Shown: positions 9,832 to 39,923 of the stretch, piece after piece
Layout of the letters: each line of letters opens with the position of its first letter
Numbering within the stretch: the first letter of the stretch is position 1
Source: Erysipelotrichia bacterium
GTDB taxonomy: Bacteria > Bacillota_I > Bacilli_A > Erysipelotrichales > Erysipelotrichaceae
Assembly (NCBI GenBank): GCA_030525245.1
Contig: JAUNFB010000009.1
Span: forward strand, 1 to 48,070
Length of the DNA stretch: 48,070 bases
Reading direction: 5' to 3'
The notes under the pieces: model-generated
Database searches by the model: none
Told to the model about the DNA's origin: nothing
What the model saw: the letters and a program-made list of their open reading frames with translations, nothing else
Program-made: the position numbers and the translations under genes

Positions 9832-9855
9832 TACATGCAGAAAGACGGTAATAAA

Positions 9856-9880: not shown

Positions 9881-9892
9881 AGAATAAAAAAA

Positions 9893-9969: not shown

Positions 9970-9984
9970 AACTTCAGTACAGAT

Positions 9985-11843: not shown

Positions 11844-11896
11844 ATTAAAATACCCTCTTTCGTATAATTTGTTTAGTCGTGCTAATCTTTAACACA

Positions 11897-11925
11897 ATTA
11901 TGCAGTTTAAATGTGCTAAAGTCAA
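11897..11925 (-). promoter_or_regulatory. Promoter of the exonuclease-BRCT gene
   Basis: On the minus strand: -35 TTGACT (11925-11920), a 17-base spacer, and -10 CATAAT (11902-11897). The word GTGCTAA occurs at 11879 and again at 11913, flanking the -10, and could be an operator pair. Confidence 0.65.
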
Positions 11926-11949
11926 AAAAATTCTGGTTATTAACATATT

Positions 11950-12294: not shown

Positions 12295-12465
12295 ATGAAA
12301 ATATACGCATATAAGGGGAAAAGTAATCTACGCGGGGGATGTCAAGAGTTAGAGACAGGATAATGCAAAGCGATTTAGTGACACGTATGCAGGTTGCGGG
12401 GATAAATTTAGAAAGAGACAGCGTAAGTTGTATAGATAATTGGTGTAAAATTTGTAACGGATTAG
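12295..12465 (+). pseudogene. XRE family HTH regulator remnant, frameshifted
   Basis: ATG 12295 begins MKIYAYKGKSNL, typical of small mobile-element XRE repressors, but the frame stops at 12361-12363 (ETG then TAA). The adjacent frame continues the homology with SRVRDRIMQSDLVTRMQVAGINLERDSVSCI. A third frame then supplies IGVKFVTD before a TAG at 12463-12465. Intact relatives read SRVRxLR...QxDLAxRMQVAGINLERDSVSRIExGxRFVxDYEL as one chain. At least two frameshifts and a truncated C-terminus make it non-functional. It probably marks a decayed mobile element; identity rests on recalled family sequence. Confidence 0.75.
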
Positions 12466-12581
12466 TTAGTGTGGATGTACGGATTATGTTGTATTCATAT
12501 CCCTCTTACTATAATCCATAATTACAATTTTACTTTACAATTGAAGCAATAGAATATGAAATAAAAATGTTAAAAAAATTG

Positions 12582-12610
12582 TTGAATGTAGATGGCAATT
12601 GTAGTAAACT
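12582..12610 (+). promoter_or_regulatory. Promoter of the S10 ribosomal operon
   Basis: -35 TTGAAT (12582-12587), a 17-base spacer and -10 TAAACT (12605-12610). This leaves an untranslated leader of about 120 bases before rpsJ. It is the best candidate for driving the 13.6-kb ribosomal cluster. Confidence 0.6.
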
Positions 12611-12616
12611 TATTGT

Positions 12617-12737
12617 TGCGACCGTATGGATGTGCGAGGTTGCCGACACACTGATGTTCGTTGTCATGGTGTGTAGTCGGGGAATTCGCATTGAACGGGT
12701 CTATCATGGAAATAGACAAGCAGAGGAGGAAATATCC
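12617..12737 (+). promoter_or_regulatory. Structured 5' leader of rpsJ, candidate autoregulatory element
   Basis: The leader contains a hairpin at 12643-12680: CCGA+CACAC pairs with GTGTG+TCGG across a three-base bulge, with an inner TGA/TCA pairing. Bacterial S10 operons are often autoregulated through such leaders, for example by L4 in gamma-proteobacteria. Whether that holds here is inference. There is no T-run, so it is not a simple terminator. The rpsJ site AGAGGAGGA follows at 12722-12730. Confidence 0.45.
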
Positions 12738-13049
12738 ATGGCAAAAAATTCAGTAAGAATTCGTTTGAAAGCCTATGAGCATCGTTCTCTTGATTCAGCT
12801 ACACAAAAAATAGTTGAAACAGCATTGAAACATGGTGCTAAGAAGGTTGTCGGACCGGTACCACTACCTACCGAAAAACAGGTGGTAACAGTAATCAGAG
12901 CTACTCACAAGTACAAAGATTCAAGAGAGCAGTTCGAAATCAGAACCCACAAGAGATTGGTTGAAATCATCGGCCCAACCAGTGAAACAATTACAGCTTT
13001 AACCGGTTTGGAATTGCCTTGCGGAGTCGATATTGAAATCAAACTTTAA
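12738..13049 (+). CDS. rpsJ: 30S ribosomal protein S10
   Basis: 103 residues, the normal length. It carries the S10 core ([14 protein letters not shown] near the N-terminus, [11 protein letters not shown] and [12 protein letters not shown]). S10 is in the 30S head and also serves as NusE in transcription antitermination. I start at ATG 12738, preceded by AGGAGGA; the frame is open 57 codons further upstream, but that part lies in the leader and lacks S10 similarity. First gene of the cluster. Confidence 0.98.
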
Positions 13050-13071
13050 GAGAAATTAAGGAGGAGACATC

Positions 13072-13755
13072 ATGAAAGGCTTAATGGGACGTAAGCTTGG
13101 TATGACCCAAGTATTTACGAATGATGGGACGCTCATTCCGGTTACAGTCGTTGAAGTAACACCTAATGTTGTAATTCAAAAGAAAGATGTTGAAAACGAC
13201 GGTTATGTAGCACTACAACTCGGAATGGAAGACTTAAAAGAAAACAAAGCTACAAAGGCCAACAAGGGCCACGCTGCAAAAGCGAACACTGCCGCTAAGA
13301 GATTCTATCATGAATTCAAGAGCGACGAGATGGCTGACTTAGAAGTTGGCGCAACTGTTTCTGCTGATTTATTCGCAGCAGGTGACAAGGTTGATGTTCA
13401 GGGAACATCTCGCGGTAAAGGTTACATGGGTGCCATTTATCGTAACAATCAGCATATGTTGCCGGCTACTCACGGTACAGGACCTGTACACAGAACTGCC
13501 GGATCTATGGCTACAATCGGTCGTAACAATGGTTATATTAACAAAAATAAAGTTATGGCCGGTCAAGAGGGTAATTATACTACCACTAACCAAAACCTTG
13601 AAATTGTTAAGGTTGATATGGAACACAACTGTTTATTGATTAAAGGCAATGTGCCGGGTCCGAGAAAAGGATTGGTATTTGTTAAAACTACAGTTAAACC
13701 TGTTAAACATGTTGAACCTGTAGAATTGATAAACTACGAAATTAAGGAGGCTTAA
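13072..13755 (+). CDS. rplC: 50S ribosomal protein L3
   Basis: 227 residues, slightly longer than the usual 205-210 because of a Lys-rich C-terminal tail ending in NYEIKEA. Family markers are MKGLMGRKLGMTQVF at the start and RNNQHMLPATHGTGPVHRTAGSMATIG in the loop that reaches toward the peptidyl-transferase centre. L3 is an early-assembly 23S rRNA binder. It is 22 bases after rpsJ and two bases before rplD. Confidence 0.98.
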   Translation: MKGLMGRKLGMTQVFTNDGTLIPVTVVEVTPNVVIQKKDVENDGYVALQLGMEDLKENKATKANKGHAAKANTAAKRFYHEFKSDEMADLEVGATVSADLFAAGDKVDVQGTSRGKGYMGAIYRNNQHMLPATHGTGPVHRTAGSMATIGRNNGYINKNKVMAGQEGNYTTTNQNLEIVKVDMEHNCLLIKGNVPGPRKGLVFVKTTVKPVKHVEPVELINYEIKEA

Positions 13756-25956: not shown

Positions 25957-26322
25957 ATGCAAAATCGTAAATTAGGACGCAAGGCCGACCATCGTAAAGC
26001 TTTATTCCGTAATTTAGCAACCGATATGATTGTTTACGGTAAAATTAATACAACTGAAATGAAAGCAAAGGAATTGAGAACTGTTGTTGATGAATTAGTA
26101 ACATTAGCAAAGAAAAATGATTTACATGCTCGTCGTCAAGCAGCAAGTTATGTTAAAGATGTAGTTGCTGATAAGAAGACAGGCAAAACTGCTTTACAAA
26201 AGTTGTTTGATGAAATCGGACCTAAATTTGCCGATGTTAACGGCGGTTATACACGTGTTGTAAAGACCGGTGTTAGAAAAGGCGATGCAGCTCCGATGGC
26301 TTACATTGAATTTACAAAATAG
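25957..26322 (+). CDS. rplQ: 50S ribosomal protein L17
   Basis: 121 residues. It starts [25 protein letters not shown] and ends [22 protein letters not shown], standard for bacterial L17. It is the last gene of the ribosomal cluster; a perfect-stem terminator begins seven bases after the stop. Confidence 0.98.
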
Positions 26323-26328
26323 TTATTA

Positions 26329-26359
26329 AAGGCGACTTGTAGAATAAAGTCGCCTTTTT
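26329..26359 (+). terminator. Terminator of the ribosomal protein cluster
   Basis: AAGGCGACTT (26329-26338) pairs perfectly with AAGTCGCCTT (26347-26356) and runs into TTTTT. Confidence 0.95.
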
Positions 26360-26442
26360 ATGGGAAAGTTTAAGAGAATATAATCAAGATTGTTTCGTGA
26401 ACCACTTGGTGGTATCTAATGACAAATCAATTTATCGTAATT

Positions 26443-26476
26443 GAAATAGGAACTAATCCAACTTAGTTCCTATTTC
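26443..26476 (-). terminator. Hairpin overlapping the 3' end of the deaminase-like gene
   Basis: A perfect 14-base stem: GAAATAGGAACTAA (26443-26456) with TTAGTTCCTATTTC (26463-26476), loop of six. On the minus strand it contains the last codons and the TAG stop of the gene at 26453, followed by AATTACG, so the U-tract is poor. It could be a terminator or a 3'-end stabiliser. Confidence 0.55.
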
Positions 26477-28930
26477 ATATTTTTTATGGATTATTTTATC
26501 AATTACTGATTTACTGTCGGTACATGATGTGATATATCCGCGTAAAGATATTAGCTTTTCTTTTAAAGTTTTGCAGCCGGTACTTAGATAAATATCTGCT
26601 TTTCCTTTTCCGTTTCGGGCTTCTTGAACAAGGTTGCCTAAAGCAGAATTTCCTTCAAAAGCCAGTACAATTGAATTTCTTCTTTCGAATATCTCATAAT
26701 TGAAGGATTTATAAATGCCCATTTCCTGAGATTCTGTAGAAATTCGGAAATTATCAATTGGTGAATTGAGTAATTTTTGACAATCATTTTTGGATAGAAG
26801 TGAAGGTACAATAGCAAAGATGGTAAATCCTTGAGTGTTATTTTCCACTAAATATTTCTCATAGGCAGTTAATTTATGCCCAATAACAAAGAAAAATTTG
26901 TCGGGATCCAGCTTTTTTAATAATTGTTGAATAATATCTTTTTCTAATTGATGGGTACGAATATTGGCGTTGCTTGTAAAACTGCCGCCGGCTAAAATAA
27001 TTGGTAATTTATTCCATGGTAATTCTTTTACTCTCTCTTTTAGTATTTGGTAGGAAGAAACCTTTTTAATTTTAAATGTCGGAATATTTGCGGAGTTGTT
27101 GAGTTGTTGCAGTTTATTTGTATAATAGTCTTTAACGGAATAATGATTTAATTCATCTTGAAAAGCATTAAATTTGAGTATAAAGTAACTTCTGGCATTA
27201 TTTAATACTTCTTCTTCGGTAGAACGCATTTGGATAAACTCCTCATTACTTATATTTAGTAAGTTTTGTAGAGCTAATTGTTCATCAATGGTATCTGTAC
27301 CATATAAACCACATCCGTCTGTTCCTTGGACGCATTTGATTCCGTATTTTAAATATTTTCTCAAAGGATGATTGTTTAAAATTGTTAAATTGTTTAAACG
27401 CACATTACTGGTTAATTGGAATTCTAAAATAACGCCGTTTTCTTTTATTTGTTTCAAAGTTTCTTTGCCGCTTTTAGTTTTAAAATCAGCACCATATATA
27501 CCATGACCGATTCTTACAGGCGGGTACTTTTGGTTAGGTAGTAAAGAGTCTTTAACACAATTGATTGCTTTTGCCATGTTGTGTTTCAAGGTATCATTTT
27601 CTCCGGCATGAATGCGGATAGTAAAATGCGGATCCTTCGAGGCGATCTTTTGAACTATTTCTCTAATAACATCTTTTAGTTCGGAAATATCATTGATTTC
27701 TTCACCGACGAAGTCACAGCCTACAACATAAGGATCACGAGCAGTCAACTTTAATACTTCGATATTCTCGCTTAAATAGTTGGTTGAAGCAATATTGTCT
27801 TTTACAATAGTCAAAGGTATCCGCCTTAAGGCTGCCAAATAGCGGATAGTTACACCGGTTTCTTGTTCAACAAGAGGCAATATATAATGTATTTGTTCCA
27901 ACATATTGATTAAGGATTGATCTTTTTTAACTAAGGTTGTATCCGATATTTCAATATAATTTATATGCTGTTGTTGATAAGAGCGACCAATCCATAAAAG
28001 TGTATCTTGAAATAAAGTAAGGTTTTGATAATTTTTATTATTGGTATCTTTCAACATCTTTAAGAGGTTTTTATAGACATCAATATCAGGAATTTTAGAA
28101 AAATTATTCAGTGGCACTGTATAATCGCATTTTATTCCTTTAGTAAAAACATAACGATACAGATACAGTTTTTCTAAATTGGTAAAAACGGCTTGAGAAT
28201 CTTTTAGTATAACTAAGGAGTTGCGAATCTTATTAATGTTATAGTTAGCATTTTCCAAGTTATTTAAAATTAAATCGGCAAAATTGATAAAGGTCATATC
28301 GTTTATTTTTCTGTTAACATGTTTATCCTTTAGATCAAGATCATTACCGAATTGTTTAATCACTTCTTGTCGGCGTTGTTTAATAAATTCTGTTTGTTTT
28401 TCATTTAGAATCAAGTTCAACTTGTAAATATAATATAGAGGATATCTGATCTGATGCTTAATACCCAAAGCAATTAGGACATCAGGGTTTAAAGTTGCAT
28501 TACCGTGAGTATGTAAATCCGTTTTAAATTTCACATCTTCTAAAATATAGGATTTAATTAAAGTATGGCGTATATCGAATTTATAATCTTTGGTTTGGGA
28601 CATCAAGGTTTTGGAAATAGCGGGTATCGTTGCGTTGATTTCAATTTTTCCGTTTGGGTAGATATTGGCGATTTTTGTACCTGCTAATCTAAATACATAG
28701 ACTTCTTGACCATCGCCTTTAATGAAACAAGGAATAGTTCCTTTGACTACTTTTAATTGTTGCCGATTGAGACTTAATGGTTGTTGTAATATTTTTGCCA
28801 AATTACAAATCAAATTATCTGTGTGATGATTTGGCGTTTCTAAGCAATATGAAAGAATATTATGCTTCAAAAACAGATTAACAACGATGTCTTTTTCTTT
28901 ATCCATATAAAATTTTCCGAAATATCCCAT
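26453..28930 (-). CDS. Adenosine/AMP deaminase-like protein with C-terminal DprA/SLOG-like domain
   Basis: 825 residues. Residues 137-580 show the adenosine deaminase metal-site series: DLHTHGN (H140, H142), HAGEN (H441, E444), RIGHG (H476) and QGTDG (D538). LTSNVR sits before the HPLRKYLKYG helix as in ADA. The usual second Asp after D538 is Gly. Residues 640-800 are a separate Rossmann-like region: LPIILAGGSFTSN, FFFVIGHK, then FERRNSIVLAFEGNSALGNLVQEA, which resembles the RN(R/S)II...SG motif of DprA/SLOG nucleotide-binding proteins. About 130 N-terminal residues are unassigned. Likely a nucleoside or nucleotide deaminase with a nucleotide-sensing module; substrate unknown. The start could also be ATG 28906. 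Confidence 0.7.
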   Translation of the reverse strand: MGYFGKFYMDKEKDIVVNLFLKHNILSYCLETPNHHTDNLICNLAKILQQPLSLNRQQLKVVKGTIPCFIKGDGQEVYVFRLAGTKIANIYPNGKIEINATIPAISKTLMSQTKDYKFDIRHTLIKSYILEDVKFKTDLHTHGNATLNPDVLIALGIKHQIRYPLYYIYKLNLILNEKQTEFIKQRRQEVIKQFGNDLDLKDKHVNRKINDMTFINFADLILNNLENANYNINKIRNSLVILKDSQAVFTNLEKLYLYRYVFTKGIKCDYTVPLNNFSKIPDIDVYKNLLKMLKDTNNKNYQNLTLFQDTLLWIGRSYQQQHINYIEISDTTLVKKDQSLINMLEQIHYILPLVEQETGVTIRYLAALRRIPLTIVKDNIASTNYLSENIEVLKLTARDPYVVGCDFVGEEINDISELKDVIREIVQKIASKDPHFTIRIHAGENDTLKHNMAKAINCVKDSLLPNQKYPPVRIGHGIYGADFKTKSGKETLKQIKENGVILEFQLTSNVRLNNLTILNNHPLRKYLKYGIKCVQGTDGCGLYGTDTIDEQLALQNLLNISNEEFIQMRSTEEEVLNNARSYFILKFNAFQDELNHYSVKDYYTNKLQQLNNSANIPTFKIKKVSSYQILKERVKELPWNKLPIILAGGSFTSNANIRTHQLEKDIIQQLLKKLDPDKFFFVIGHKLTAYEKYLVENNTQGFTIFAIVPSLLSKNDCQKLLNSPIDNFRISTESQEMGIYKSFNYEIFERRNSIVLAFEGNSALGNLVQEARNGKGKADIYLSTGCKTLKEKLISLRGYITSCTDSKSVIDKIIHKKYEIGTKLD

Positions 28931-28950
28931 AACTCACCTATATTTCCATA

Positions 28951-28959
28951 AGTATAGCA
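28951..28959 (-). promoter_or_regulatory. Extended -10 promoter of the deaminase-like gene
   Basis: TGCTATACT on the minus strand (28959-28951) is an extended -10 element about 21 bases before the ATG; AGGTGA (28939-28934) is the ribosome site. The gene may therefore be transcribed separately from the DUF2804 gene behind it. No convincing -35. Confidence 0.5.
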
Positions 28960-28984
28960 CAAATAAGCTGATAAGGGTGATAAA

Positions 28985-30010
28985 TTACCAACGGTTACGT
29001 ACTTTTTCCGCAAAGCCCAATTGACCGTCCAATGTTATTGTGCGCGTATCATCGAGTTTACATTGCCCGTAAAATTTTCCGAATACTTGATGCTGATCGC
29101 TTTCGATAATTAAGGCATTAGTACGATTAGCGCGGTCTAAAATCGGCTCAAAGCGTAAATCAAGTTGATTATTATTGTCTGTAAAATGCCAGATTCCATA
29201 GAAGTGATCACGATTGTCAACTTGAGGGAGGCCGAAATCAACTTGATCCAACTTGTAGGCTTTTCCATCATAGAACAACATATTCTCACTGGCAGCGCTG
29301 GTGTTTCCAAAACCATAACCTAAATTAAATCCGAACGGAACGTTGTTTACATAACAGCTTAGAGAACTCCAATACCATGTATTATCATAGGTCCAAATTC
29401 CTCTGCCCCAATCTAACACTGACGTTGTTTTTTCCGAAAAATCGTAATTTTTTTCACCGATCATGACGGTTCCGCATGCTTTCATGCAATTGATTTTTTG
29501 ATTATAGTAAAAGCAACCTTTCTTGTTGAAAGGAGTGCAAATTACAATGCTTTCATCAGGAACATCAGTCAATTTGATATTCCATTTTATAGTATTATTT
29601 CCTTGGAAATTATGCATGTAACCTTGCAGAATTCTTTCGCTTTGTTTGTTTATAAACGAAAGAGCGTAGTTTTTTCCTTTTGAAGTAAGATCGCCTGTTA
29701 AAGATGAACGCGGATGATTCTTTTTTCCTAAAGTCATAAATTGCATAGGAGATTTGGTGATTTCCCATTTTTCATTGAAATCTAAGAATGAAACGGAATC
29801 TAAACCCATATATCCGTTATCAGCAATTGTCAGAGCTAAACCATAGTTTTGATTACCTATATAATAGTAATCCCATTCTTTAGTCTTGAATCGGCTAATA
29901 AGATCGGTTTTCTTATTGTAGATAGGTAACATATCGGTACAATAACCCGGTTCGATAATATTATTGTCTTTATCTAGTAAGTTTTTAGCCGCAATTATTC
30001 TATTTTGCAT
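28985..30010 (-). CDS. DUF2804 family protein
   Basis: 341 residues, no signal peptide or membrane helix. The central motif VLDWGRGIWTYDNTWYWSS and the GFNLGYGFGNTSAASENMLFYDGKAYKLDQV segment are typical of DUF2804, a beta-rich family related in fold to the lipocalin/AttH-like proteins, with unknown function. The start at ATG 30010 has AAAGGAG upstream. It precedes the deaminase-like gene on the same strand with a 54-base gap; co-function is possible but unproven. Confidence 0.8.
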   Translation of the reverse strand: MQNRIIAAKNLLDKDNNIIEPGYCTDMLPIYNKKTDLISRFKTKEWDYYYIGNQNYGLALTIADNGYMGLDSVSFLDFNEKWEITKSPMQFMTLGKKNHPRSSLTGDLTSKGKNYALSFINKQSERILQGYMHNFQGNNTIKWNIKLTDVPDESIVICTPFNKKGCFYYNQKINCMKACGTVMIGEKNYDFSEKTTSVLDWGRGIWTYDNTWYWSSLSCYVNNVPFGFNLGYGFGNTSAASENMLFYDGKAYKLDQVDFGLPQVDNRDHFYGIWHFTDNNNQLDLRFEPILDRANRTNALIIESDQHQVFGKFYGQCKLDDTRTITLDGQLGFAEKVRNRW

Positions 30011-30210
30011 TTTATTCTCCTTTTTAGTTATTCTCTTTTCATATTAACACAAAGGAGCATATATTAATATGAAAAAAATATCGAAAAAAATTTCTATTTA
30101 ATGTAAAAATTTCATATAAATTTCATAAAAGTAGTGTTTAATAATATTGTAATTTTAGAGAGAATTACCTCGTTTCCCCCTTCTTGAATAAAATTTTGAA
30201 AAAAATAAAT

Positions 30211-30226
30211 GGTGTCGTTTGACACC
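30211..30226 (+). other. Hairpin upstream of the PPC-domain gene
   Basis: GGTGTC-GTTT-GACACC is a perfect six-base-pair hairpin followed by TTTATTTTG. It lies 36 bases before the chosen start codon and could be an attenuator or regulator site. Its presence inside the longer open frame argues against the upstream ATG at 30209. Confidence 0.4.
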
Positions 30227-30262
30227 TTTATTTTGTTAGGTTATGATTTTGACGGTGATATT

Positions 30263-30667
30263 ATGTTTTTAGCAGTAAGATTAAAAAAAGGTCAGGATTT
30301 AAAGAAAGAAATTGAAAAAATTATTAGAGAAAACAAGGTAAAGGCGGCTGTTGTCATCAGTGCAGTAGGTTGCTTGGATAATTTGTGTATTCGCTTGGCC
30401 GGAGGGAAGACTTTTTTGGAGAAAAAGCAGGATTATGAAATTGTGTCTTTGATGGGGACGATATGTAAGGATGGCTCCCATCTGCATATAGCGGTAAGTG
30501 ATGCGAACGGAAAAACATATGGTGGACATTTGTGCTATAATTGTATTGTCAATACAACCTGTGAATTGGTACTGGCTTGTATTGATGCTGAATATGATTT
30601 TTCACGTGTTTATGATGATACTACCGGATATAAGGAGTTGGTCATCAAAAAGGAGGAACTTGAATGA
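30263..30667 (+). CDS. PPC/DUF296 domain protein
   Basis: 134 residues from ATG 30263. The whole chain is one PPC (DUF296) domain: LAVRLKKGQDLKKEIEKII, AAVVISAVGCLDNLCIRL, then GSHLHIAVSDANGKTYGGHL near residues 75-95, which carries the conserved histidines. Bacterial single-domain PPC proteins form trimers; their role is not known, although plant homologues bind AT-rich DNA through a separate hook absent here. The frame extends to ATG 30209, but the family N-terminus fits 30263. It overlaps the next gene by four bases. Confidence 0.8.
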   Translation: MFLAVRLKKGQDLKKEIEKIIRENKVKAAVVISAVGCLDNLCIRLAGGKTFLEKKQDYEIVSLMGTICKDGSHLHIAVSDANGKTYGGHLCYNCIVNTTCELVLACIDAEYDFSRVYDDTTGYKELVIKKEELE

Positions 30668-30903
30668 AAAAATTAACTAAATATTTTGTTGGCAGCCAAG
30701 AGGCAAAAAAAGATTTGTTGCATTTATTGATTCTTATTTTGGTCTATGCACTTGTAGCTTGGTTGATTAATATTGTCGGCGGTGTGCTATCAATTATTCC
30801 GATTGTTAATATTATTGTCGGCGTAGTGGTAAAAATTTGCATATTATATTTAGCTTTGTGTGTAGTGGTTTCTGTGCTGGCATTTTTCAAAATTGTTGAT
30901 TAA
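30664..30903 (+). CDS. Small hydrophobic membrane protein
   Basis: 79 residues, not recognised. A Lys-rich N-terminus (MKKLTKYFVGSQEAKKD) is followed by two or three hydrophobic segments (about residues 18-40 and 42-75) with Gly/Ile/Val repeats. It is translationally coupled to the PPC gene (ATGA overlap, AAAGGAGG upstream), so it is genuinely expressed with it. A terminator follows at once. Function unknown. Confidence 0.7.
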   Translation: MKKLTKYFVGSQEAKKDLLHLLILILVYALVAWLINIVGGVLSIIPIVNIIVGVVVKICILYLALCVVVSVLAFFKIVD

Positions 30904-30910
30904 TTAAGGT

Positions 30911-30946
30911 TATATCTCTTTGGTTTCAAAGAGATATATTTTTTTT
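30911..30946 (+). terminator. Terminator of the PPC/membrane-protein operon
   Basis: TATATCTCTTT (30911-30921) pairs with AAAGAGATATA (30928-30938), followed by eight T. Confidence 0.93.
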
Positions 30947-31028
30947 GGCGGAATTATGAAGATAAAAAATTTGTTATGTATGAATATCTGCTAAAATTGG
31001 GTGCTGTGTAATAAGAAATAATCTTACA

Positions 31029-32252
31029 TTATATTGAGGATTTTGTATCTTTTTTTATCAGTAAAATGATTAGATCATTAACATTTGTGTTTGTAGGACC
31101 GGTAAAAATTAAAGCGTTCAACTTCTTTAATAAATTATAGCTATCACAGTTATTGATATATTCATCTAAATTGTATCGGAGAGCTTGTTGGGCGATATTT
31201 TGATCGCAATATCCGCCATCGGCATCTGTCGGACCGTCTGTTCCGTCGGAACCGCAAGCAATCAGCGTGGTATTATAAAGCGTTGAGAATCTTTTTAGAC
31301 ACAGAGCTACTAAGTGTTGACAACGTCCTCCTAAACCGTTTGTCCGGACAGTTAAAGTTAATTCGCCGGAAAAGATAAATGCTAAGTCGGAAGTCGGATG
31401 TTGATTGAAGTTGGCTAAGGCAATAATTTCGCGAGCAAAATTATTAATATCACCGTTGACAGTTGTTGATACCACTGTTGTTTGATAACCGAGTTTTTGA
31501 CAAATTCTGTGTGCCGAATCGGCTAATAATATATTAGAGCCGATTAAAAAAGAGCGGACGTTATTTAATCTAGGAAACGGTGACAATAATAAATTTTGTG
31601 GAATATTCAGCCGGTATTTACGGTTTATTTCCGTTGCTAAAGGGATGTTATCTTTGCTTTCGACTGTTGGCCCGGATGCAATAGTCGATAAATCATTGCC
31701 GATAACATCGCTTAAAATATAGTTATAGATATTGGCTTTTGTCAAAGAAGCTAACTTTCCGCCTTTTACTTGAGATAATTTTTTACGAATAAGATTTATT
31801 TCTTGAATTGATGCGGAGGAATGTAACAATTTATTGTTAATAAGTTGAAGTTGTTCTAAAGGTATTAACGGTAATTCCATTAATGAACTGCCGCCTCCGG
31901 AAATGAGAAAAATAATGTCATCACATTCTTTTAATGGTTTAATTAAATCAATGATGGCTTGGGTAGTCAGTAAAGAATTATTGTCTGTTAAGGGATGACC
32001 GGCTTCGAATATTGTAAAATCAGGAATGTTTCCTTGGGAGTGTCTGTATTTTGTCAGAACTATTCCTTGGTCAATCTTTTTGGAAAGAAAGTTCTGACAG
32101 ATCTTTCCCATCAACCAGCTAGCCTTCCCGATAGATATGACAATCAACTTTCCGCTATGAAAAGTCTGCCTCGATAAATATTGAGACAGTAGTTTATCAG
32201 GTTTACACTCGTTGATCGCGTAATCAACTATTTTTTTAATTTCTTCATTCAT
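31029..32252 (-). CDS. Glycerate 2-kinase, class II (GckA/TtuD/DUF4147-MOFRL type)
   Basis: 407 residues. It phosphorylates glycerate to 2-phosphoglycerate. The N-terminal domain has VISIGKASWLMG, EAGHPLTDNNS, the phosphate-loop FLISGGGSSLMELP and LSDVIGNDLSTIASGPT. The C-terminal MOFRL-like domain has FSGELTLTVRTNGLGGRCQHLVAL and CGSDGTDGPTDADGGYCD. Normal length. The minus-strand -10 TATAAT lies only seven bases from the ATG and no Shine-Dalgarno is visible, so the mRNA may be leaderless. Monocistronic. Confidence 0.9.
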   Translation of the reverse strand: MNEEIKKIVDYAINECKPDKLLSQYLSRQTFHSGKLIVISIGKASWLMGKICQNFLSKKIDQGIVLTKYRHSQGNIPDFTIFEAGHPLTDNNSLLTTQAIIDLIKPLKECDDIIFLISGGGSSLMELPLIPLEQLQLINNKLLHSSASIQEINLIRKKLSQVKGGKLASLTKANIYNYILSDVIGNDLSTIASGPTVESKDNIPLATEINRKYRLNIPQNLLLSPFPRLNNVRSFLIGSNILLADSAHRICQKLGYQTTVVSTTVNGDINNFAREIIALANFNQHPTSDLAFIFSGELTLTVRTNGLGGRCQHLVALCLKRFSTLYNTTLIACGSDGTDGPTDADGGYCDQNIAQQALRYNLDEYINNCDSYNLLKKLNALIFTGPTNTNVNDLIILLIKKDTKSSI

Positions 32253-32259
32253 AGTTAAA

Positions 32260-32265
32260 ATTATA
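32260..32265 (-). promoter_or_regulatory. -10 element of the glycerate kinase gene
   Basis: A perfect TATAAT on the minus strand, seven bases from the ATG at 32252; the -35 region (near 32283-32288, CATATT) is poor. Confidence 0.5.
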
Positions 32266-32279
32266 GCGCAAAATAAATA

Positions 32280-32304
32280 AAAAATATGCTTAATTAAGCA
32301 TATT
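32280..32304 (-). terminator. Terminator of tRNA-Gln (20-base palindrome)
   Basis: ATATGCTTAATTAAGCATAT (32284-32303) is a perfect palindrome. On the minus strand it is followed by TTTT and lies 11 bases after the tRNA 3' end. Confidence 0.7.
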
Positions 32305-32314
32305 AATTAACAAA

Positions 32315-32390
32315 TGGCTGGGATAATAGGATTCGAACCTATGTAATGTCAGAGTCAGAGTCTGATGCCTTACCGCTTGGCGATATCCCA
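32315..32390 (-). tRNA. tRNA-Gln (anticodon CTG)
   Basis: 76 bases with encoded CCA. The acceptor TGGGATA/TATCCCA has the U1-A72-type weak pair usual for tRNA-Gln. Anticodon stem TCAGA/TCTGA encloses loop CTCTGAC, giving CTG that reads CAG. T-loop TTCGAAT. Confidence 0.95.
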
Positions 32391-32404
32391 ATGATAACAG
32401 GAAT

Positions 32405-32410
32405 ATTATA
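32405..32410 (-). promoter_or_regulatory. -10 element of tRNA-Gln
   Basis: TATAAT on the minus strand ends 14 bases before the tRNA 5' end; the -35 is weak. It is back-to-back with the plus-strand -10 at 32431. Confidence 0.5.
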
Positions 32411-32430
32411 CAACAAAAAAGTTATTATGG

Positions 32431-32436
32431 TATAAT
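32431..32436 (+). promoter_or_regulatory. -10 element of the E2-like gene
   Basis: A perfect TATAAT, 25 bases before ATG 32461, in the spacer shared with the divergent tRNA-Gln promoter. Confidence 0.5.
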
Positions 32437-32460
32437 TATTTGCGGAAAAGGAAAAGATTT

Positions 32461-33339
32461 ATGGAAAAAAGAAAAAAACACTATCTTGATCGGGCAGATG
32501 GCTATTATTTGAAAGATATTGATTCATTTCATAATTATTTTGCTCATTTAAATCCACGCAGAACAGACTGTGAAGTATGTATGCTTTCTCATTTGGATGT
32601 CACCAAAGCGTTGGAATATTTACATATGAAGAATGAAAATAGTGATTGTAAGATAACATTCTTTCATTTGATTTTGACTGTGATGGCTAAAATGGTTTAT
32701 AATCGGGAAAAAATGAATCGCTTTGTAGCCGGAAGAAGATTTTATCAAAGAAAAAAAGTTATTTTGTCTTTTGTGGCCAAAAAGAAATTTACTGATCAAG
32801 CTGAGGAAGCTTTAATGATGCTTCATCCGAAGCAGGGAGATAATTTGAATAGTATAGCTCATAAAGTCAGCGGAGAAGTCAAACAGGCACGCAAAGAAAA
32901 TAACAAAGAATACGGAGCTGATGCTGCTTTGAATACTTTGGCTAAATTACCTAGATTTTTAATGATAATGGTTATGGGAGTATTGAAATGGTTAGATAAA
33001 AACGGTTTGTTTCCGGAAAGCTTTATGCGAGTTGATCCGAACTATTCAACTATCCTTTTAAGCAATTTAGGTTCAATAAAATGCGATGCGGTATATCATC
33101 ATTTATCTAATTTCGGTACTAACAGCATTGTTTTGACAATTGGAACTATTCATAAGGAAAAAGTGCTTAATGAAAATGCGCAAGAAGAAATTAAGGATGT
33201 TGTTAATTTCGGCATTACTATTGATGAAAGAATAGGAGATGGCTTCTATTTTGCTAAATGTATGAAATTTGTTCAATTTGTTTTGGATCATCCGGAATTA
33301 TTGGATGATGATGTTACATCGATAGTTGACTATCAGTGA
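32461..33339 (+). CDS. Stand-alone 2-oxoacid dehydrogenase E2/CAT-fold acyltransferase-like protein
   Basis: 292 residues matching only the catalytic (CAT-fold) domain of E2 acyltransferases: FFHLILTVMAKMVYNREKMNRFVAGRRFYQRKKVILSF near the N-terminus and FGTNSIVLTIGTIHKE, VNFGITIDERIGDGFYFAKCMKFVQFVLDHPELL at the C-terminus. There is no lipoyl or peripheral-subunit-binding domain. The catalytic HxxxDG is ERIGDG: the His is replaced. No E1 or E3 genes are nearby. It is probably a CAT-fold acyltransferase relative of unknown substrate or a non-catalytic homologue. ATG 32461 is preferred over an upstream TTG. Confidence 0.8.
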   Translation: MEKRKKHYLDRADGYYLKDIDSFHNYFAHLNPRRTDCEVCMLSHLDVTKALEYLHMKNENSDCKITFFHLILTVMAKMVYNREKMNRFVAGRRFYQRKKVILSFVAKKKFTDQAEEALMMLHPKQGDNLNSIAHKVSGEVKQARKENNKEYGADAALNTLAKLPRFLMIMVMGVLKWLDKNGLFPESFMRVDPNYSTILLSNLGSIKCDAVYHHLSNFGTNSIVLTIGTIHKEKVLNENAQEEIKDVVNFGITIDERIGDGFYFAKCMKFVQFVLDHPELLDDDVTSIVDYQ

Positions 33340-33353
33340 GTTTATCCGACAAG

Positions 33354-33373
33354 GCCGACTTTTTGTCGGCTTT
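33354..33373 (+). terminator. Terminator after the E2-like gene
   Basis: GCCGAC (33354-33359), loop TTTTT, GTCGGC (33365-33370), then TTTAA. Short U-tract. Confidence 0.65.
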
Positions 33374-33422
33374 AATGTTAAAGGCAAATATGATAAAATA
33401 ATAAGGTTAGGTGGTGTTTAAA

Positions 33423-34250
33423 TTGGATGCTGTAAGAGTAGAAAATCTTAATTATAGTTATCATGGTGATAAGATGACAATTGATGATATTTCTTTTACA
33501 ATACCTCAAGGTTCATATACAACGGTTATCGGGCATAATGGATCCGGTAAAAGTACATTGGCTAAATTGCTTTTAGGCTTATTAGAGAAAAAATCGGGAA
33601 ATATTTATATTAACGATTTGGAACTGAATTATGAAAATTTGAATAAAATCAGAAATAATATCGGAATAGTTTTTCAAAATCCCGATAATCAATTCATTGG
33701 TTCAACGGTTCGTGATGATATTGCTTTCGGTTTGGAAAACCATTGCTTTCCTCGTGAAGAAATGGATCCTATTATTGAAAAGTATGCCGCCGAAGTAAAT
33801 ATGAGCAAATTTTTGGAAAACGAACCGACAAAATTGTCGGGTGGGCAAAAACAAAGAGTCGCTATTGCTTCGGTATTGGCGATGAATTTGAACATTATTG
33901 TTTTTGATGAAGCAACAAGTATGTTGGATCCAACGGGAAAAAGAGAAATAAATCGTTTGATTAACAAAATACATCAACAGCAGAAAATTACGATAATTTC
34001 AATTACTCATGATATTGAAGAGGTTGCTCAGAGCGATAATGTTTTAGTGATCGATAATGGAAAATTGGCTATGAGCGGTAAACCGGAGCAGATATTTAAA
34101 AACGAAAAAATGATGGTGAGAATGAAATTGGATATTCCTTTTGCTTATAAGTTGCGCAATGAATTGGCAAAAAGGGGCGTAAAAGTAGCGGACACACTTG
34201 ATTTGGAAAGGATGGCTGAAGAAGTATGTCAATACGTTTTGAAAAAGTAG
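33423..34250 (+). CDS. ecfA1: ECF transporter ATPase EcfA1
   Basis: 275 residues. One of two ATPases powering energy-coupling-factor vitamin/metal uptake with EcfT and variable S components. Walker A GHNGSGKST, Q-loop FQNPDNQFIG, signature LSGGQKQRVAIAS and Walker B IIVFDEATSMLDP are intact. AGGTGG at 33409-33414 is best spaced to TTG 33423 (protein LDAVRVENLNYSYHG); a GTG at 33411 would overlap that site. It overlaps ecfA2 by 25 bases. Confidence 0.93.
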   Translation: MDAVRVENLNYSYHGDKMTIDDISFTIPQGSYTTVIGHNGSGKSTLAKLLLGLLEKKSGNIYINDLELNYENLNKIRNNIGIVFQNPDNQFIGSTVRDDIAFGLENHCFPREEMDPIIEKYAAEVNMSKFLENEPTKLSGGQKQRVAIASVLAMNLNIIVFDEATSMLDPTGKREINRLINKIHQQQKITIISITHDIEEVAQSDNVLVIDNGKLAMSGKPEQIFKNEKMMVRMKLDIPFAYKLRNELAKRGVKVADTLDLERMAEEVCQYVLKK

Positions 34251-35083
34251 ATCATATTTATTCGGAAAATACTCCTTTTGCTTATCAAGCATTGAGTGAT
34301 GTCGATTTGGATATTTCCGAGGGCAAAATAACGGCAGTAATCGGTGCTACCGGAAGTGGCAAGACAACACTTGTACAACACTTAAACGGGCTTTTGTTAC
34401 CTTCTAAGGGTATTGTGGAAGTAAATGATGTTACAATTCGTGCCGGGGAAAAAGTGAAGGATATTAAGCATCTGCGCAGTCAGGTAGGACTTGTCTTCCA
34501 ATTTGCCGAATATCAATTATTTGAAGAAACTTTAATTAAAGATGTAGCTTTTGGCCCTCAAAATTTCGGCATGGAAGTTACGCAAGCCGAAAAATTAGCT
34601 AAGGAGGCACTTAAAACTTGCGGAATAAGTGAAGCTGACTTTGACAAATCACCATTGGAATTATCCGGCGGGCAAAAAAGAAGAGTAGCTATTGCGGGAA
34701 TAATTGCCATGCAACCGCAAGTATTGGTGTTGGATGAACCTACTGCCGGTTTGGATCCGCAAGGAGCTAAAATGATGATGGATTTATTTGCTCAATTAAA
34801 TAGACAACGGCATATTACCATTATTATTGTTACCCACAATATGGAACATGTATTGAGCTATTGCGATGAAGTGGTGGTTATGGAAAACGGTAAGATGATT
34901 ATGCATTGTGATAAAAACAAATTTTTTGAAAACGAACAATATATGCAGAAAGCCTTAATTGATCCACCGGTAATTATCTCCTTTAAAAAACTATGCGCAG
35001 AAAAGGGCGTGCAATTTTCTGCTGATGTTTTGGATATTAAAACGTTGGCTGACAAAATAGCTAAGAGGTGTGTAAATGAATAA
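34226..35083 (+). CDS. ecfA2: ECF transporter ATPase EcfA2
   Basis: 285 residues, the second ATPase. Walker A GATGSGKTTL, Q-loop FQFAEYQLFEETL, signature LSGGQKRRVAIAG and Walker B VLVLDEPTAGLDP. The EcfA2 characteristic FxEYQLFE is clear. It starts inside the end of ecfA1 and ends inside the start of ecfT, so the module is tightly coupled. In most Bacillota this module follows rplQ directly; here seven genes intervene. Confidence 0.95.
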   Translation: MSIRFEKVDHIYSENTPFAYQALSDVDLDISEGKITAVIGATGSGKTTLVQHLNGLLLPSKGIVEVNDVTIRAGEKVKDIKHLRSQVGLVFQFAEYQLFEETLIKDVAFGPQNFGMEVTQAEKLAKEALKTCGISEADFDKSPLELSGGQKRRVAIAGIIAMQPQVLVLDEPTAGLDPQGAKMMMDLFAQLNRQRHITIIIVTHNMEHVLSYCDEVVVMENGKMIMHCDKNKFFENEQYMQKALIDPPVIISFKKLCAEKGVQFSADVLDIKTLADKIAKRCVNE

Positions 35084-35876
35084 TGTTACTTTAGGAAAAT
35101 ATTTGCCGCTTAATTCATTTGTCCACAGATTAGATCCGCGCACGAAGATTTGCGTGATGTTTGTTTTACTTGTGGGTATATTTTTGCCTTGTGGCTTTAT
35201 AGGTTACGGTATTATCGGATTATTTCTTTTGATCAGCGTATTTTTAAGCAAATTATCGGTGGGATATATTTGGAAAAGTTTTAAACCGACTTTGATCACA
35301 CTGGCTTTTTTGCTTGTTATCAACATTTTTGTTATTAAGACAGGAGATGTTTTGATAAGTTTTTGGAAGATTACAATTTACAAAGATGCTTTGATTCAAA
35401 CACTGTATATTGTTGTCAGATTATTATTGATGATAGTAATCACAACTTTATTGACGGCTACAACGAAACCTTTGGATCTGACTTTGGGTATTGAAGATTT
35501 ATTAATTCCGTTTGAAAAACTTGGCTTTAGAACACATGATTTGGCAATGATGATTTCATTGGCTTTGCGTTTTATTCCGACACTTTTAGAGGAGGCCCAA
35601 AGAATATTAAAGGCACAGGCTTCAAGAGGTGTTGATATGGAAAACGGCAGTTTTAAAGAAAAAATTACCGCTATTCTTTCTTTGATTGTGCCATTATTTG
35701 TTTCTTGTTTCCAAAAGGCTGATGATTTGGCTGACGCAATGGAGGCAAGAGGGTATATTGTCGGAGCAAAAAGGGTTAGATATAAACAATTAAAATTTGC
35801 TTGGTATGATTTTGCGGTATTGTTTGTTTCCAACGGATTGTTGGCATTATTGATTTATATTTGGTTGAGTAAATGA
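35076..35876 (+). CDS. ecfT: ECF transporter transmembrane subunit EcfT
   Basis: 266 residues with about five hydrophobic helices. PLNSFVHRLDPRTKICVMF at the start and two coupling-helix motifs (ILKAQASRGVDMENG and DAMEARGYIVGAKR, the Ala-Arg-Gly signatures) bind the two ATPases. No S component is encoded nearby, as expected for a shared group II ECF module. The stop overlaps the truA start (ATGA). Confidence 0.95.
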   Translation: MNNVTLGKYLPLNSFVHRLDPRTKICVMFVLLVGIFLPCGFIGYGIIGLFLLISVFLSKLSVGYIWKSFKPTLITLAFLLVINIFVIKTGDVLISFWKITIYKDALIQTLYIVVRLLLMIVITTLLTATTKPLDLTLGIEDLLIPFEKLGFRTHDLAMMISLALRFIPTLLEEAQRILKAQASRGVDMENGSFKEKITAILSLIVPLFVSCFQKADDLADAMEARGYIVGAKRVRYKQLKFAWYDFAVLFVSNGLLALLIYIWLSK

Positions 35877-36631
35877 GATATAAATGTATTGTAAGTTATG
35901 ATGGTACAGCTTATGCCGGCTGGCAAAGGCAAAATGGCAAAAGATCGATTCAGCAAACTATTGAAGAGGCTTTGAAGAAAATTGTTTGTCAAGATATCAA
36001 AATTTATGCTTCCGGAAGAACTGATGCTCAAGTTCATGCCAGAGGACAGGTTTTTCATTTCGATTGCGATAAGAAATTTGCCGATTTCAGAAAAGCATTG
36101 AATTCGCAATTGCCGAAGGATATTTATATTCTGTCTATGGAACCGGTGGCTGATGATTTTCACAGCCGTTTCTCGGCATGTTACAAGCATTATGATTATT
36201 TGATTAATGATGGCGATTATGATCCTTTAATGGTTAATTACTGTTGTCAAACAAATAGAAAATTAGATATTGCATTGATGGAAAAATTTAGTAAAATATT
36301 TATAGGCGAACATGATTTTACCAGTTTCAATGCGACAAAAAAAGCAGAGGTGGAAAATCAGGTGCGTACAATATATCGTATTGATGTAAAAAGACACGGT
36401 AATATGATCAAAATATCTTATTATGGGAACGGATTTTTGCGTTATATGGTACGCATATTGTCGCAATGCTTGATTGAAGCTGCATTAGGTAATTTGACCG
36501 AGAAGCAATTAACGGAAATGTTAGAGGCGGAAGATAAGCGAGCTTGTCATTATAACGGACAACCGCAAGGTCTTTATTTGATGGAGGTATCATACAAACC
36601 TTATTTAGTTGCACCGGTGGCGGAATGGTAG
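35873..36631 (+). CDS. truA: tRNA pseudouridine(38-40) synthase
   Basis: 252 residues. It isomerises uridines 38-40 in the anticodon arm. The catalytic Asp is in ASGRTDAQVHARGQVFHF; KHYDYLI and the C-terminal GNGFLRYMVRILSQCLIEAALG are TruA features. Normal length. The last six codons and the stop (APVAEW-TAG) are the first 21 bases of the tRNA-Leu gene on the same strand. In most Bacillota truA follows ecfT, as here. Confidence 0.96.
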   Translation: MRYKCIVSYDGTAYAGWQRQNGKRSIQQTIEEALKKIVCQDIKIYASGRTDAQVHARGQVFHFDCDKKFADFRKALNSQLPKDIYILSMEPVADDFHSRFSACYKHYDYLINDGDYDPLMVNYCCQTNRKLDIALMEKFSKIFIGEHDFTSFNATKKAEVENQVRTIYRIDVKRHGNMIKISYYGNGFLRYMVRILSQCLIEAALGNLTEKQLTEMLEAEDKRACHYNGQPQGLYLMEVSYKPYLVAPVAEW

Positions 36632-36694
36632 ACGCGTACGTTTGAGGGGCGTATGGCATTAGTCGTGTGAGTTCAAGTCTCATTCGGTGCACCA
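36611..36694 (+). tRNA. tRNA-Leu (anticodon GAG)
   Basis: 84 bases with encoded CCA and a long variable arm. Acceptor GCACCGG with its partner before ACCA. Anticodon stem TACGT/GCGTA, loop TTGAGGG, anticodon GAG reading CTC/CTT. D-arm GGCGGAATGGTAGACGC. It overlaps truA by 21 bases and probably depends on read-through from the ecf-truA operon, since no room for its own terminator-separated promoter is obvious. Confidence 0.95.
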
Positions 36695-36702: not shown

Positions 36703-36732
36703 AAATCGTTGTATTATACAGCGATTTTTTTT
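36703..36732 (+). terminator. Terminator of tRNA-Leu / ecf-truA operon
   Basis: AAATCGTTGTA (36703-36713) pairs with TACAGCGATTT (36717-36727, one G-T pair), followed by eight T. Confidence 0.9.
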
Positions 36733-36774: not shown

Positions 36775-38676
36775 TTACCAAATAATTATGCGTTTGTCTT
36801 CCGGAATATACATTTGATCTGTTTCTTTGACATCAAAAGCTTCGTACCATTCTTTGAAATTTCTGACTTGGATGTTAGCTCTCAGTTTTGCTGGAGAATG
36901 CACATCATTGTTCAGCAAGAATTGCATATATTGTTCTGTGGCTTTGATACACCAAATTCTAGCCCAATTGATGAAATATTCCTGGAAGTTGCAGCTGTCT
37001 AAAGTATGCATTAGCTCGATTGTAACAGCCATTCCACCGTTATCGGCAATGTTTTCCGAAACAACTAATTCACCATTTACTTTTCCGCCGGCGAATTCAA
37101 TGCCATCCCATTGCTCAATCATTGATTTGGTTAAATCTTTAAAGTTTTGATAATCCTTTTCTGTCCACCAATCACTTAAGTTACCGAACTCATCAAAGTG
37201 AGCACCATTGTTATCAAAAGCATGAGATATTTCGTGAGAAATAACAGCTCCGATACCTCCTAAGTTTTCAGAAACTGTTTGTTCGATTGAATAGAAAGGT
37301 TTTTGTAAAATTGCTGCCGGGAATGTTATGTCGTTTCTGCTAGGGTCATAACAAGCATTGACCATATGGGCAGGCATTAGCCATTCACTTTTATCAACAG
37401 GTTTATTTAATTTTTCAAATTCATAATTTGTATAAATTTGATTGATTTTATTGACAGCTTGGTAGTAGTTATCTTCATCATTTATTATGAATTTTTTATA
37501 AATGTCTCTAACATCATCAGGATAACCCAGTTTTAAATTGATGGTAGAAAGTTTTAATAAAGCTTTGTCTTTGGTTTGTTGTTGCAGGAAAGTATTTCTG
37601 CTTACTCTTTTTTTCCAAGTTGTTAATATTTTATTTACTAGTTCGGTGATATCTTTTTTAGATTCTTCACCAAAATATGTTCTTCCGTAGTAAATACCGA
37701 TAGGTTGAGAGAAAAAGCTTGAAACAACGCGATATGCTTGTTTATCTAAAGGAGAGTCACATTCGATACCTAATAGTGTGCGACGATACAAACCGCCTAA
37801 AGTAGCTAATTGAATCGATAATTGTGAAGTGTGACTCAACAGCGTTTTGACATATGCCCAATGAGTATATAAAGTCAAATTATCTTTATTAAAATAGAAA
37901 GACATTTCTTTAATTGCTTTCGGATCGGCAACGATAATTTCTTGCGGAATGTTTTCACCGTAAAAATCTTTTAATAATCCGATGAAGTCAAATGGTTGCA
38001 GATAATTGCTTACTTCAGCAGTTGTAAAAGGATTGTAATTATTAACATAATCAGCCCATTCTAATTGACTTTTAACTTTTTGGGCTATTAAAGCATCATA
38101 AGTTAAAGTATCTTGAATGAACTGCTGTTTTTCTTCGGCAGATAAGTCGGTGAAATCAAGAACTTGCTGAACCATGTTCTTATATACTTCCAACAATTGT
38201 TTTCCGGTTTGATTATCCGGATGATAATAGGTTGTATCCGGTAGGATTGTGTTCGGACCGTAAAGATTTAAGGAATTCTTAGTGGCATTTTTCATATCGG
38301 CTTCTACTGTGATATTGATCGGTAATAGAGCCTGATTGAGTAACAACTCTTTGGCTGACTTGTTGAGTTCTTCAACTGTTTTAATGCTTTTGATCTTGTT
38401 TAATAAAGGCATGATCGGAGCAATTCCGTCTTTATTTCTTTGTTGTTCGTCGATGACTTTTTTATATAATTTGATTGCCTGCTCAATTGTAGGAACATCG
38501 GTTGTTTTTGTGCCTTGGACAAATTGTTTAAAATCACTCATTAATAATTTTTCAACATTTTGATCCAAAGTTTCAAAGCCACCTGTTGTTGGTCTGTCTT
38601 TGGGAATAACGGCAGTTTCTAACCATTTTCCGTTAACGGCTTGGTATAAATCATCTTGTATTCTGATATTTTCCAT
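36775..38676 (-). CDS. pepO: M13 family zinc metallopeptidase (PepO/neprilysin-like)
   Basis: 633 residues. A cytoplasmic-type endopeptidase (no signal peptide) for small peptides. The zinc site HEISH in GAVISHEISHAFDNNGAHFDEFGNLSDWW, the third ligand in ENIADNGG, and the substrate-binding NACYDPSRNDITFPAAILQ are all intact. The N-terminal M13 domain begins DDLYQAVNGKWLE. ATG 38676 follows AGGAGG by five bases; upstream in-frame codons fall in the leader hairpin. The terminal residues are RIIIW; the family often ends in a CxVW motif. Confidence 0.95.
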   Translation of the reverse strand: MENIRIQDDLYQAVNGKWLETAVIPKDRPTTGGFETLDQNVEKLLMSDFKQFVQGTKTTDVPTIEQAIKLYKKVIDEQQRNKDGIAPIMPLLNKIKSIKTVEELNKSAKELLLNQALLPINITVEADMKNATKNSLNLYGPNTILPDTTYYHPDNQTGKQLLEVYKNMVQQVLDFTDLSAEEKQQFIQDTLTYDALIAQKVKSQLEWADYVNNYNPFTTAEVSNYLQPFDFIGLLKDFYGENIPQEIIVADPKAIKEMSFYFNKDNLTLYTHWAYVKTLLSHTSQLSIQLATLGGLYRRTLLGIECDSPLDKQAYRVVSSFFSQPIGIYYGRTYFGEESKKDITELVNKILTTWKKRVSRNTFLQQQTKDKALLKLSTINLKLGYPDDVRDIYKKFIINDEDNYYQAVNKINQIYTNYEFEKLNKPVDKSEWLMPAHMVNACYDPSRNDITFPAAILQKPFYSIEQTVSENLGGIGAVISHEISHAFDNNGAHFDEFGNLSDWWTEKDYQNFKDLTKSMIEQWDGIEFAGGKVNGELVVSENIADNGGMAVTIELMHTLDSCNFQEYFINWARIWCIKATEQYMQFLLNNDVHSPAKLRANIQVRNFKEWYEAFDVKETDQMYIPEDKRIIIW

Positions 38677-38689
38677 TGGTTCCTCCTCT

Positions 38690-38728
38690 AAGGATTTTAT
38701 TAGCAAATCCTTACTGTTTATTATAGCA
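38690..38728 (-). promoter_or_regulatory. pepO promoter and leader hairpin
   Basis: On the minus strand an extended -10 TGCTATAAT (38728-38720) is followed by AAGGATTT/AAATCCTT (38712-38690), an eight-base-pair hairpin directly before the AGGAGG site. The hairpin may stabilise the 5' end of the transcript. Confidence 0.6.
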
Positions 38729-38789: not shown

Positions 38790-39923
38790 GAAGAAACGGA
38801 ATATATCAGTATTTCTTGAAAAGATGTTTAATGAAGAAACATCAAAACCGTACACAAGAAAGTATATGCAAACAAAGGAGCAGGCAGACTTGACTAAGCT
38901 ATAATCAATGAACTTTAAGAATATATGAAATAGCATTAGAAAAGTATTAGTCAATAAGTCCGAGAGAAAAAACACAAACAGCAACTTGCATTAAGGGTAG
39001 AAATATCTAAGCCGAATGGCGGAGTACTAAATTGGGAATTTCCATGGTAATTGATAGAGTTATAAGTATAAATCCCCTCTATTTGATTCAATGCTCAACG
39101 AAAACATTAATGGTTTTTAACCGAACAGAATATGTGAGCATGCAATAGTAGAAATGCTCGAATAGTTTAATTGCAAATATTGACCTTGAAAAATCCTTTA
39201 ACAATGTACTGCACAAGTCAAGTTGATTAGGTATGTTGGTAGAGTAAAACACCGTGGGATACATAAAGTTTAATCAGAAATTATCTCAAAGCAGGGGTTA
39301 TGAACAAAGGCGCATTCGAAGCAAAGAACATAGAGGTATCCCCTATAAGATGGGAATTTGTCGCCCTTTCTCAGCAACATAGTGCTGAATGAACTTAAAA
39401 GGCGAGTATTGCAATTTACACGATATGCCAAGGATGTAAGTGATTGTAGTAAGACACGAAGCGGTATCAAAAAGGGCAATGTATTCCATAACGGATTGGA
39501 TAGAAAGGAAATTCGGATTAAAGTTAAAAGCAACAAAAGTAAAGATAACTTCATTGAGTAAACTCAAATATTTTGACTTTGACTTTTGGAAAGATGAAAC
39601 TGAATGTAAATATAAGACCTCGCGAAAGTTAAAAAAGTTCAAAAGAAAGCTTAAAATCATAGACGAACATCTAAGAACGATGCTGAGGGTGATGATTTGG
39701 AAATAGTCGTGAAAACTGCAAAGAGGCTAAAATATTGATTATTAAAAACTCGAAGTGCCTGAGCGGAAATCGAAAAAGTTGGCGAATTGGGGAGATCATT
39801 ACCAATTCGTAGCACAAAATCTGTTTTTAAAAGAACCATTTCAAAAGAAATACTGACCAAGTAGGGCTTAGTCAGTATCTGTGACTACTACCTAAAAGTA
39901 GCACATATTTAATTTTGAATTGA
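38790..39923 (+). pseudogene. Group II intron reverse transcriptase/maturase, decayed
   Basis: Pieces of a single RT appear in order across three frames. VYANKGAG comes first, then INEL*EYMK, then LRVEISKPNGGV. LGISMVIDRVI (38.98-39.06 kb) follows, then LNENINGF*PNR, CEHAIVEMLE, and NIDLEKSFNNV (the YxDxxKFFD region). SPFLSNIVLNEL comes next, then FTRYAKD (YADD active site changed to YAKD), and WIERKFGLKLKATKVKITSLSKLKYFDFDFWKD. The C-terminus is KEILTK*GLVSICDYYLK. Many stops and frameshifts and a mutated active site make it dead. Orders and motifs match LtrA-like proteins. Confidence 0.88.

Follow-up and report, generated by a model that had tools for sequence, protein, structure and literature searches.

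A truA coding sequence that ends inside a tRNA-Leu(GAG) gene: a probable gene collision in the Erysipelotrichaceae

How does a bacterium obtain both a protein and a tRNA from a junction at which the stop codon of the one gene lies within the other? This question is raised by a 48,070-nt stretch of DNA from an Erysipelotrichia bacterium (hereafter the window), in which truA, specifying tRNA pseudouridine(38-40) synthase (positions 35873–36631, + strand; an open reading frame of 252 aa), runs into a same-strand gene for tRNA-Leu(GAG) with an encoded CCA end (36611–36694, +). The overlap described in a prior sequence-only reading is exact and spans 21 nt (36611–36631): truA codons 247–252 and the stop, read in frame as GCA CCG GTG GCG GAA TGG TAG, are tRNA nt 1–21, and the TAG occupies nt 19–21 in the D-loop. 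Both genes are well supported. The protein matches TIGR00071 with 197.2 bits (NCBIfam cut-off 142.85 bits), its residues 4–236 aligning to profile positions 4–228 of 228, and also matches PF01416, which places it within the TruA family; its named relatives are TruA proteins of Erysipelotrichaceae or Erysipelotrichia metagenome-assembled genomes (MAGs). The tRNA, found by ARAGORN, has paired stems, a GAG anticodon and a CCA end, and scores 46 bits against Rfam RF00005 (gathering score 29 bits).

RNase P cuts at the 5' end of a tRNA, and the cut expected here, placed from the tRNA 5' end, would fall between positions 36610 and 36611 (+ strand). As truA codon 246 ends exactly at 36610, the last base before the tRNA, this cut would leave 246 whole truA codons and remove the stop codon, bearing out a second proposal of that reading. 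The match to the TruA family ends at residue 236 (TIGR00071) or 241 (Pfam), so the truA codons within the tRNA form a non-conserved tail, and a product ending at residue 246 would retain the full conserved domain. The folding energy of the junction gave no signal in the three stretches analyzed (z 0.45, -0.52 and 0.07).

We determined how the two genes are arranged in relatives. In all seven genomes of the window's genus, and in 7 of the 8 truA-bearing genomes of its sister genus, truA is followed on the same strand by tRNA-Leu(GAG); in the exception, L253, no tRNA is present at this place, and the eight exclude a ninth sister-genus genome without a truA match. By comparison, no tRNA lay within 400 nt downstream of truA in 98 of 110 sampled loci (duplicates included), among them all those from other Erysipelotrichaceae and more distant genomes; the 12 loci that did have one all belonged to the genus or sister genus, some being counted twice. 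Because the pairing is present in both genera and not in the other sampled loci, it probably arose once, before the two genera split, with the overlap as a later state. Gaps between truA and the tRNA in the 14 genomes carrying the pair are -21 nt in the window, -7 nt in each of two sister species (L004 and L006), and +22 to +97 nt in the remaining 11. The spaced state is probably ancestral on the tree, since the sister-genus copies carry TATAAT upstream of the tRNA. With overlap in only 3 of the 14 genomes, the suggestion that it is a coupling device kept across the clade fails, and we rejected the overlap as a conserved device.

The overlapping genomes differ in which gene gave way. In L004 and L006 the overlap of 7 nt puts the truA stop codon in the acceptor stem of the tRNA, and the truA C-terminus reads K/Q-M-Q-TAG. 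Three of the four spaced members of the genus end truA in N/D-M-E/D-stop, and the fourth, L008, has M-N plus a further tail. Given this resemblance to the M-[ED]-stop of spaced members, the M-Q-stop of the 7-nt pair looks like the old end of truA, kept while the tRNA changed. The first seven bases of the tRNA in these two genomes are GCAGTAG, as opposed to GCAYCGG in most relatives and GCACTGG in L143, and the 3' strand of the acceptor stem is CTGCTGC, so that pairing is intact at all seven positions, once as G-U. The acceptor stem is fully paired (100%) in each of the 11 tRNAs aligned, both bases having changed at 3 of the 7 pairs, and the pattern GCAGTAGTGGYGGAAT occurs in 2 of 272 genomes of the family, exactly L004 and L006. 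On the simplest reading, spacer loss in this pair would have put the truA tail in the place of the 5' strand of the tRNA, and the 3' strand would have adapted afterwards. For the window, the tRNA-Leu(GAG) acceptor stem equals that of the Leu(CAG) paralogue of the same genome, which argues that here the tRNA was kept and truA's own end lost. The TAG in the D-loop is the next in-frame stop for truA; it depends on a T ahead of AG at a variable position, which is A in L005, L007 and L009.

Whether the overlap arose once or twice was assessed with trees and with the junction itself. On the best tree of EcfA2, EcfT and TruA the overlap state changes twice, and a single clade of the three overlapping genomes is not rejected (AU p = 0.341). 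This tree places the window next to spaced members of its genus (support 81/74), unlike the tree of TruA only, where the sister genus, the 7-nt pair and the window share an open group. Counted from the conserved Tyr codon, the tRNA begins 15 nt downstream in the window and 14 nt downstream in the 7-nt pair, a spacing that fits a common ancestor with nearly abutting genes as well as it fits two events.

The consequences of the overlap depend on how the tRNA is transcribed. Among -10-like boxes upstream of the window tRNA, the highest score belongs to TATCAT, inside truA (36588–36593, +; score 8.0), which matches the -10 consensus at 5 of 6 positions; 17 nt separate it from the tRNA. It has no matching -35 (2 of 6 matches) and no TG extension, and an equally high score comes from 65% of shuffled versions of that upstream stretch (promoter shuffles keep base content only). 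A search for promoter-like matches on the + strand found none in the 200 nt upstream of the tRNA; the region as a whole holds 21, compared with 13.6 (sd 3.6) in shuffles. A TATAAT, TATTAT or TATCAT box lies 10–14 nt 5' of the tRNA in every one of the 11 spaced copies, which under one scoring scheme reach 9.5–13, against 8.0, 6.5 and 8.0 for the overlapping copies, a gap that amounts to a trend and not to an independent test because the genomes are related (the stretch upstream of the tRNA is identical in L251 and L252, and in L066 and L254, of which L066 is not among the 14). As controls we used tRNAs of the window genome (G000) outside contig C31 that had no other tRNA within 150 nt upstream, dropping upstream stretches shorter than 60 nt. 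Most of these lead tRNAs show -10-like boxes, with some exceptions; scores similarly low to those of the overlapping copies were obtained for a few, such as two Ser tRNAs (L041, 8.0; L057, 8.5) and a Phe tRNA (L047, 7.5) whose cluster is truncated by the end of a contig. Contig C31 carries a loose array of 22 ARAGORN tRNAs (L040, positions 4200–13190) and is probably a phage contig binned with the window genome.

Since promoter-like sequence is weakest in the overlapping copies, the tRNA is probably carried on the transcript of truA and the ecf genes upstream. Alternatively, the TATCAT box could act as a weak promoter within truA that gives the tRNA a short transcript of its own while truA mRNA reads on to the terminator, leaving the overlap uncoupled and of low cost. 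The quality of the -10 match and its position favor this alternative, as does the spaced relative L007, whose spacer contains the same box, likewise without a good -35. However, the missing -35 and TG extension and the frequency of equal scores in shuffles speak against it, and truA mRNA that reads through the tRNA would remain a substrate for RNase P regardless. We therefore regard it as unlikely, though it is the alternative that deserves most weight. An internal promoter had been named beforehand as something that could undo the idea of a coupled pair: a candidate box does exist, but without a -35 it is not favored.

The surroundings of the junction are compatible with a shared transcript. 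The truA gene is the fourth in a tight group, a presumed operon that starts with ecfA1 (33411–34250, +; TIGR04520 ECF_ATPase_1, 362.5 bits, cut-off 315) and continues with ecfA2 (34226–35083, +; TIGR04521 ECF_ATPase_2, 363.5 bits, cut-off 330) and a gene for an EcfT-like transmembrane component (35076–35876, +; TIGR02454, 77.9 bits, under the cut-off of 111.8). Successive genes overlap by 25 nt (ecfA1/ecfA2), 8 nt (ecfA2/ecfT) and 4 nt (ecfT/truA, ATGA). Directly 3' of the tRNA lies a hairpin resembling an intrinsic terminator (36703–36727, +; 11 pairs, 3 of them G-C, with a T-rich tail), and a further terminator-like hairpin precedes ecfA1 (33346–33369). No terminator-like site was found on the + strand between the truA start and the tRNA, so that the tRNA lies 3' of a coding sequence on the same strand with none intervening, as in an arrangement of the secG-leuU type. 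Two terminator-like sites within ecfT (35137–35156 and 35830–35844), if real, would reduce read-through to the tRNA; the total of such sites is 4 compared with 1.3 (sd 1.4) expected, or 5 compared with 2.4 (sd 1.6) in a second scan.

Several other features flank this group. A gene for a PepO-like M13 peptidase (36775–38706, - strand) is convergent with the truA-tRNA unit and has its own terminator-like hairpin (36767–36740). Beyond it, positions 39270–39706 hold fragments with broken frames that carry SPFLSNIVLNEL and FTRYAKD, motifs that we take to be like those of a group II intron reverse transcriptase; a Pfam search of 39358–39561 gave no match. On the other side, ecfA1 directly follows rplQ in many Firmicutes, and the window has an interval (26323–33410) between rplQ (25957–26322, named by eye) and ecfA1 that encodes an 825-aa protein with an adenosine-deaminase domain (PF00962, residues 320–568), a DUF2804 protein, a MOFRL glycerate-kinase-like protein and an acyltransferase-like protein.

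Taken with the relatives, the observations at the junction make it likely, in our judgment, that the locus is a derived gene collision, a product of compaction in which two genes on a shared transcript were forced into a processing conflict, and not a purpose-built switch. The ancestor of the two sister genera would have had truA, a short spacer with a tRNA promoter, tRNA-Leu(GAG) and a terminator. In the window lineage the spacer and truA's own end would then have been lost, with truA running into the tRNA to stop at the D-loop TAG; in the two sister species the truA end would have been kept, the first seven bases of the tRNA becoming the truA tail GCAGTAG and the other strand being matched to it. 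Transcription would start upstream of ecfA1, or within the group, and proceed through the tRNA to the terminator, and with its promoter gone the tRNA would most likely be made from the ecfA1-ecfA2-ecfT-truA transcript. TruA would be made from this transcript while it is uncut. Cleavage at 36610/36611 would release the tRNA and leave a truA mRNA of 246 codons with no stop, a nonstop message presumably open to 3' decay and at whose end ribosomes would need rescue, for which the genome has a tmRNA (128.6 bits). Translation should in turn delay folding of the tRNA, as ribosomes finishing truA cover the sequence of its acceptor and D-arm, while the cut should stop productive translation, making the two fates sequential and competing. 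The statement of the sequence-only reading that mature tRNA-Leu and full-length truA message exclude each other thus stands for the end products but not for their order, as a transcript could be translated for several rounds and cut afterwards. The genome also encodes Leu(UAG) and Leu(CAG) tRNAs, which may ease the cost of the conflict; tRNAs with a UAG anticodon can often read other CUN codons.

More ambitious readings give the conflict a function. In one, 5' processing of the tRNA would be an on-off step, each ecf-truA transcript at a given moment serving either TruA synthesis or tRNA-Leu, with RNase P capacity setting the dose of TruA through tagging and degradation of nonstop mRNA, and with the acceptor stem of the sister species rewritten by a stop codon and still functional; we consider this scheme, taken whole, quite doubtful. 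Similarly, we judge it very unlikely that regulatory coupling has been selected, whether RNase P or demand for the tRNA sets the TruA level via nonstop decay of truA mRNA or truA translation delays maturation of tRNA-Leu. In its favor, the cut would lie precisely between two codons and take the stop away from truA, a tmRNA is present, and the arrangement is tolerated in two forms. On the other hand, the overlap is confined to 3 of the 14 genomes with the gene pair, the Leu(UAG) isoacceptor is also encoded, so that pressure on the GAG tRNA is likely small, and the tRNA offers TruA no U38–U40.

The last of these points also bears on the thematic tie that had been drawn between a tRNA-modifying gene and an adjoining tRNA. 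TruA acts on U38–U40 of tRNAs, and the window tRNA-Leu(GAG), with its anticodon at positions 34–36, has G38, G39 and C40. It is therefore not a TruA substrate, and its adjacency to truA is no sign of a feedback loop. We rejected a substrate link, as tRNA-Leu(GAG) of the genus lacks U38–U40; the sister-genus tRNA of L144 has U38, so the absence of a target applies within the genus but does not extend to all relatives.

An artefact, in which a base or assembly error erased a stop just before the tRNA, is highly improbable: the window does come from a single draft MAG (G000, contig 49; 1,681,872 bases in 133 contigs, 88.89% complete) and one base change in TTA (36605–36607) would create an in-frame stop, but Y-x-P-[YF] in the two relatives with 7-nt overlaps backs the frame to residue 244, a one-base indel error before that residue would break the match, only two codons separate the conserved tail from the tRNA, and two other assemblies overlap at the same junction, making sequencing error an unlikely source.

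To gauge how unusual the overlap is, we surveyed 136 distinct tRNAs (55, 47 and 34 from three of the seven genomes of the genus), found by ARAGORN in fetched stretches; ARAGORN returned 47 tRNAs for 48 Rfam hits in G005 and 34 for 36 in G001. Nine of the 136 have a same-strand open reading frame of at least 60 codons ending inside them. Random reading frames easily stop in tRNAs, so evidence that a frame is a gene matters: two of the nine are truA, and the other seven gave no Pfam family match. A truA end inside a tRNA is thus rare among the surveyed tRNAs.

Known systems share parts of this arrangement. In animal mitochondria, the ends of mRNAs are set by the excision of tRNAs, bases may be common to a coding gene and a tRNA gene, and stop codons can be completed by polyadenylation. 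Like this tRNA punctuation, truA and the tRNA share bases on one strand, 21 nt in the window and 7 nt in L004 and L006. We know of no stop repair of the polyadenylation type for bacterial mRNA, and a nonstop truA mRNA is therefore expected, unlike in mitochondria. In E. coli, secG ends before leuU, whereas truA ends inside the tRNA with its stop at nt 19–21, so that the cut destroys the stop. The E. coli pair is an mRNA-tRNA cotranscript according to a title cited in PMC3985628 and, as far as that source goes, resembles the window in that a tRNA-Leu gene comes immediately after a coding gene and ahead of a Rho-independent terminator, and in processing by RNase P. Protein genes overlapping tRNA genes also occur in a ciliate endosymbiont with a reduced genome, for which a modified Prokka was used to annotate them (PMC7969357); the window differs in that its draft genome measures 1.7 Mb and such overlaps are rare (a recognized gene at 2 of the 136 tRNAs surveyed in three genomes of the genus), and in having relatives that record stages of the collision. 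The phage attachment sites that PMC10865867 treats, which lie in tRNA genes, are not relevant to the junction. The literature searched, which covered few subscription journals, yielded no account of a bacterial truA whose end lies within a tRNA.

Annotation programs that forbid overlaps between coding sequences and tRNAs would mis-end genes such as this truA. The 14 genomes of the two genera form a small natural series that runs from spaced genes to a collision of a protein gene with a tRNA gene, and it contains two outcomes: in one, truA takes its stop codon from the tRNA; in the other, the acceptor stem is rewritten by the stop codon, with compensation on the opposite strand. Through this series one can directly test what a bacterium does when an RNA cleavage that it needs takes the stop codon off an mRNA.
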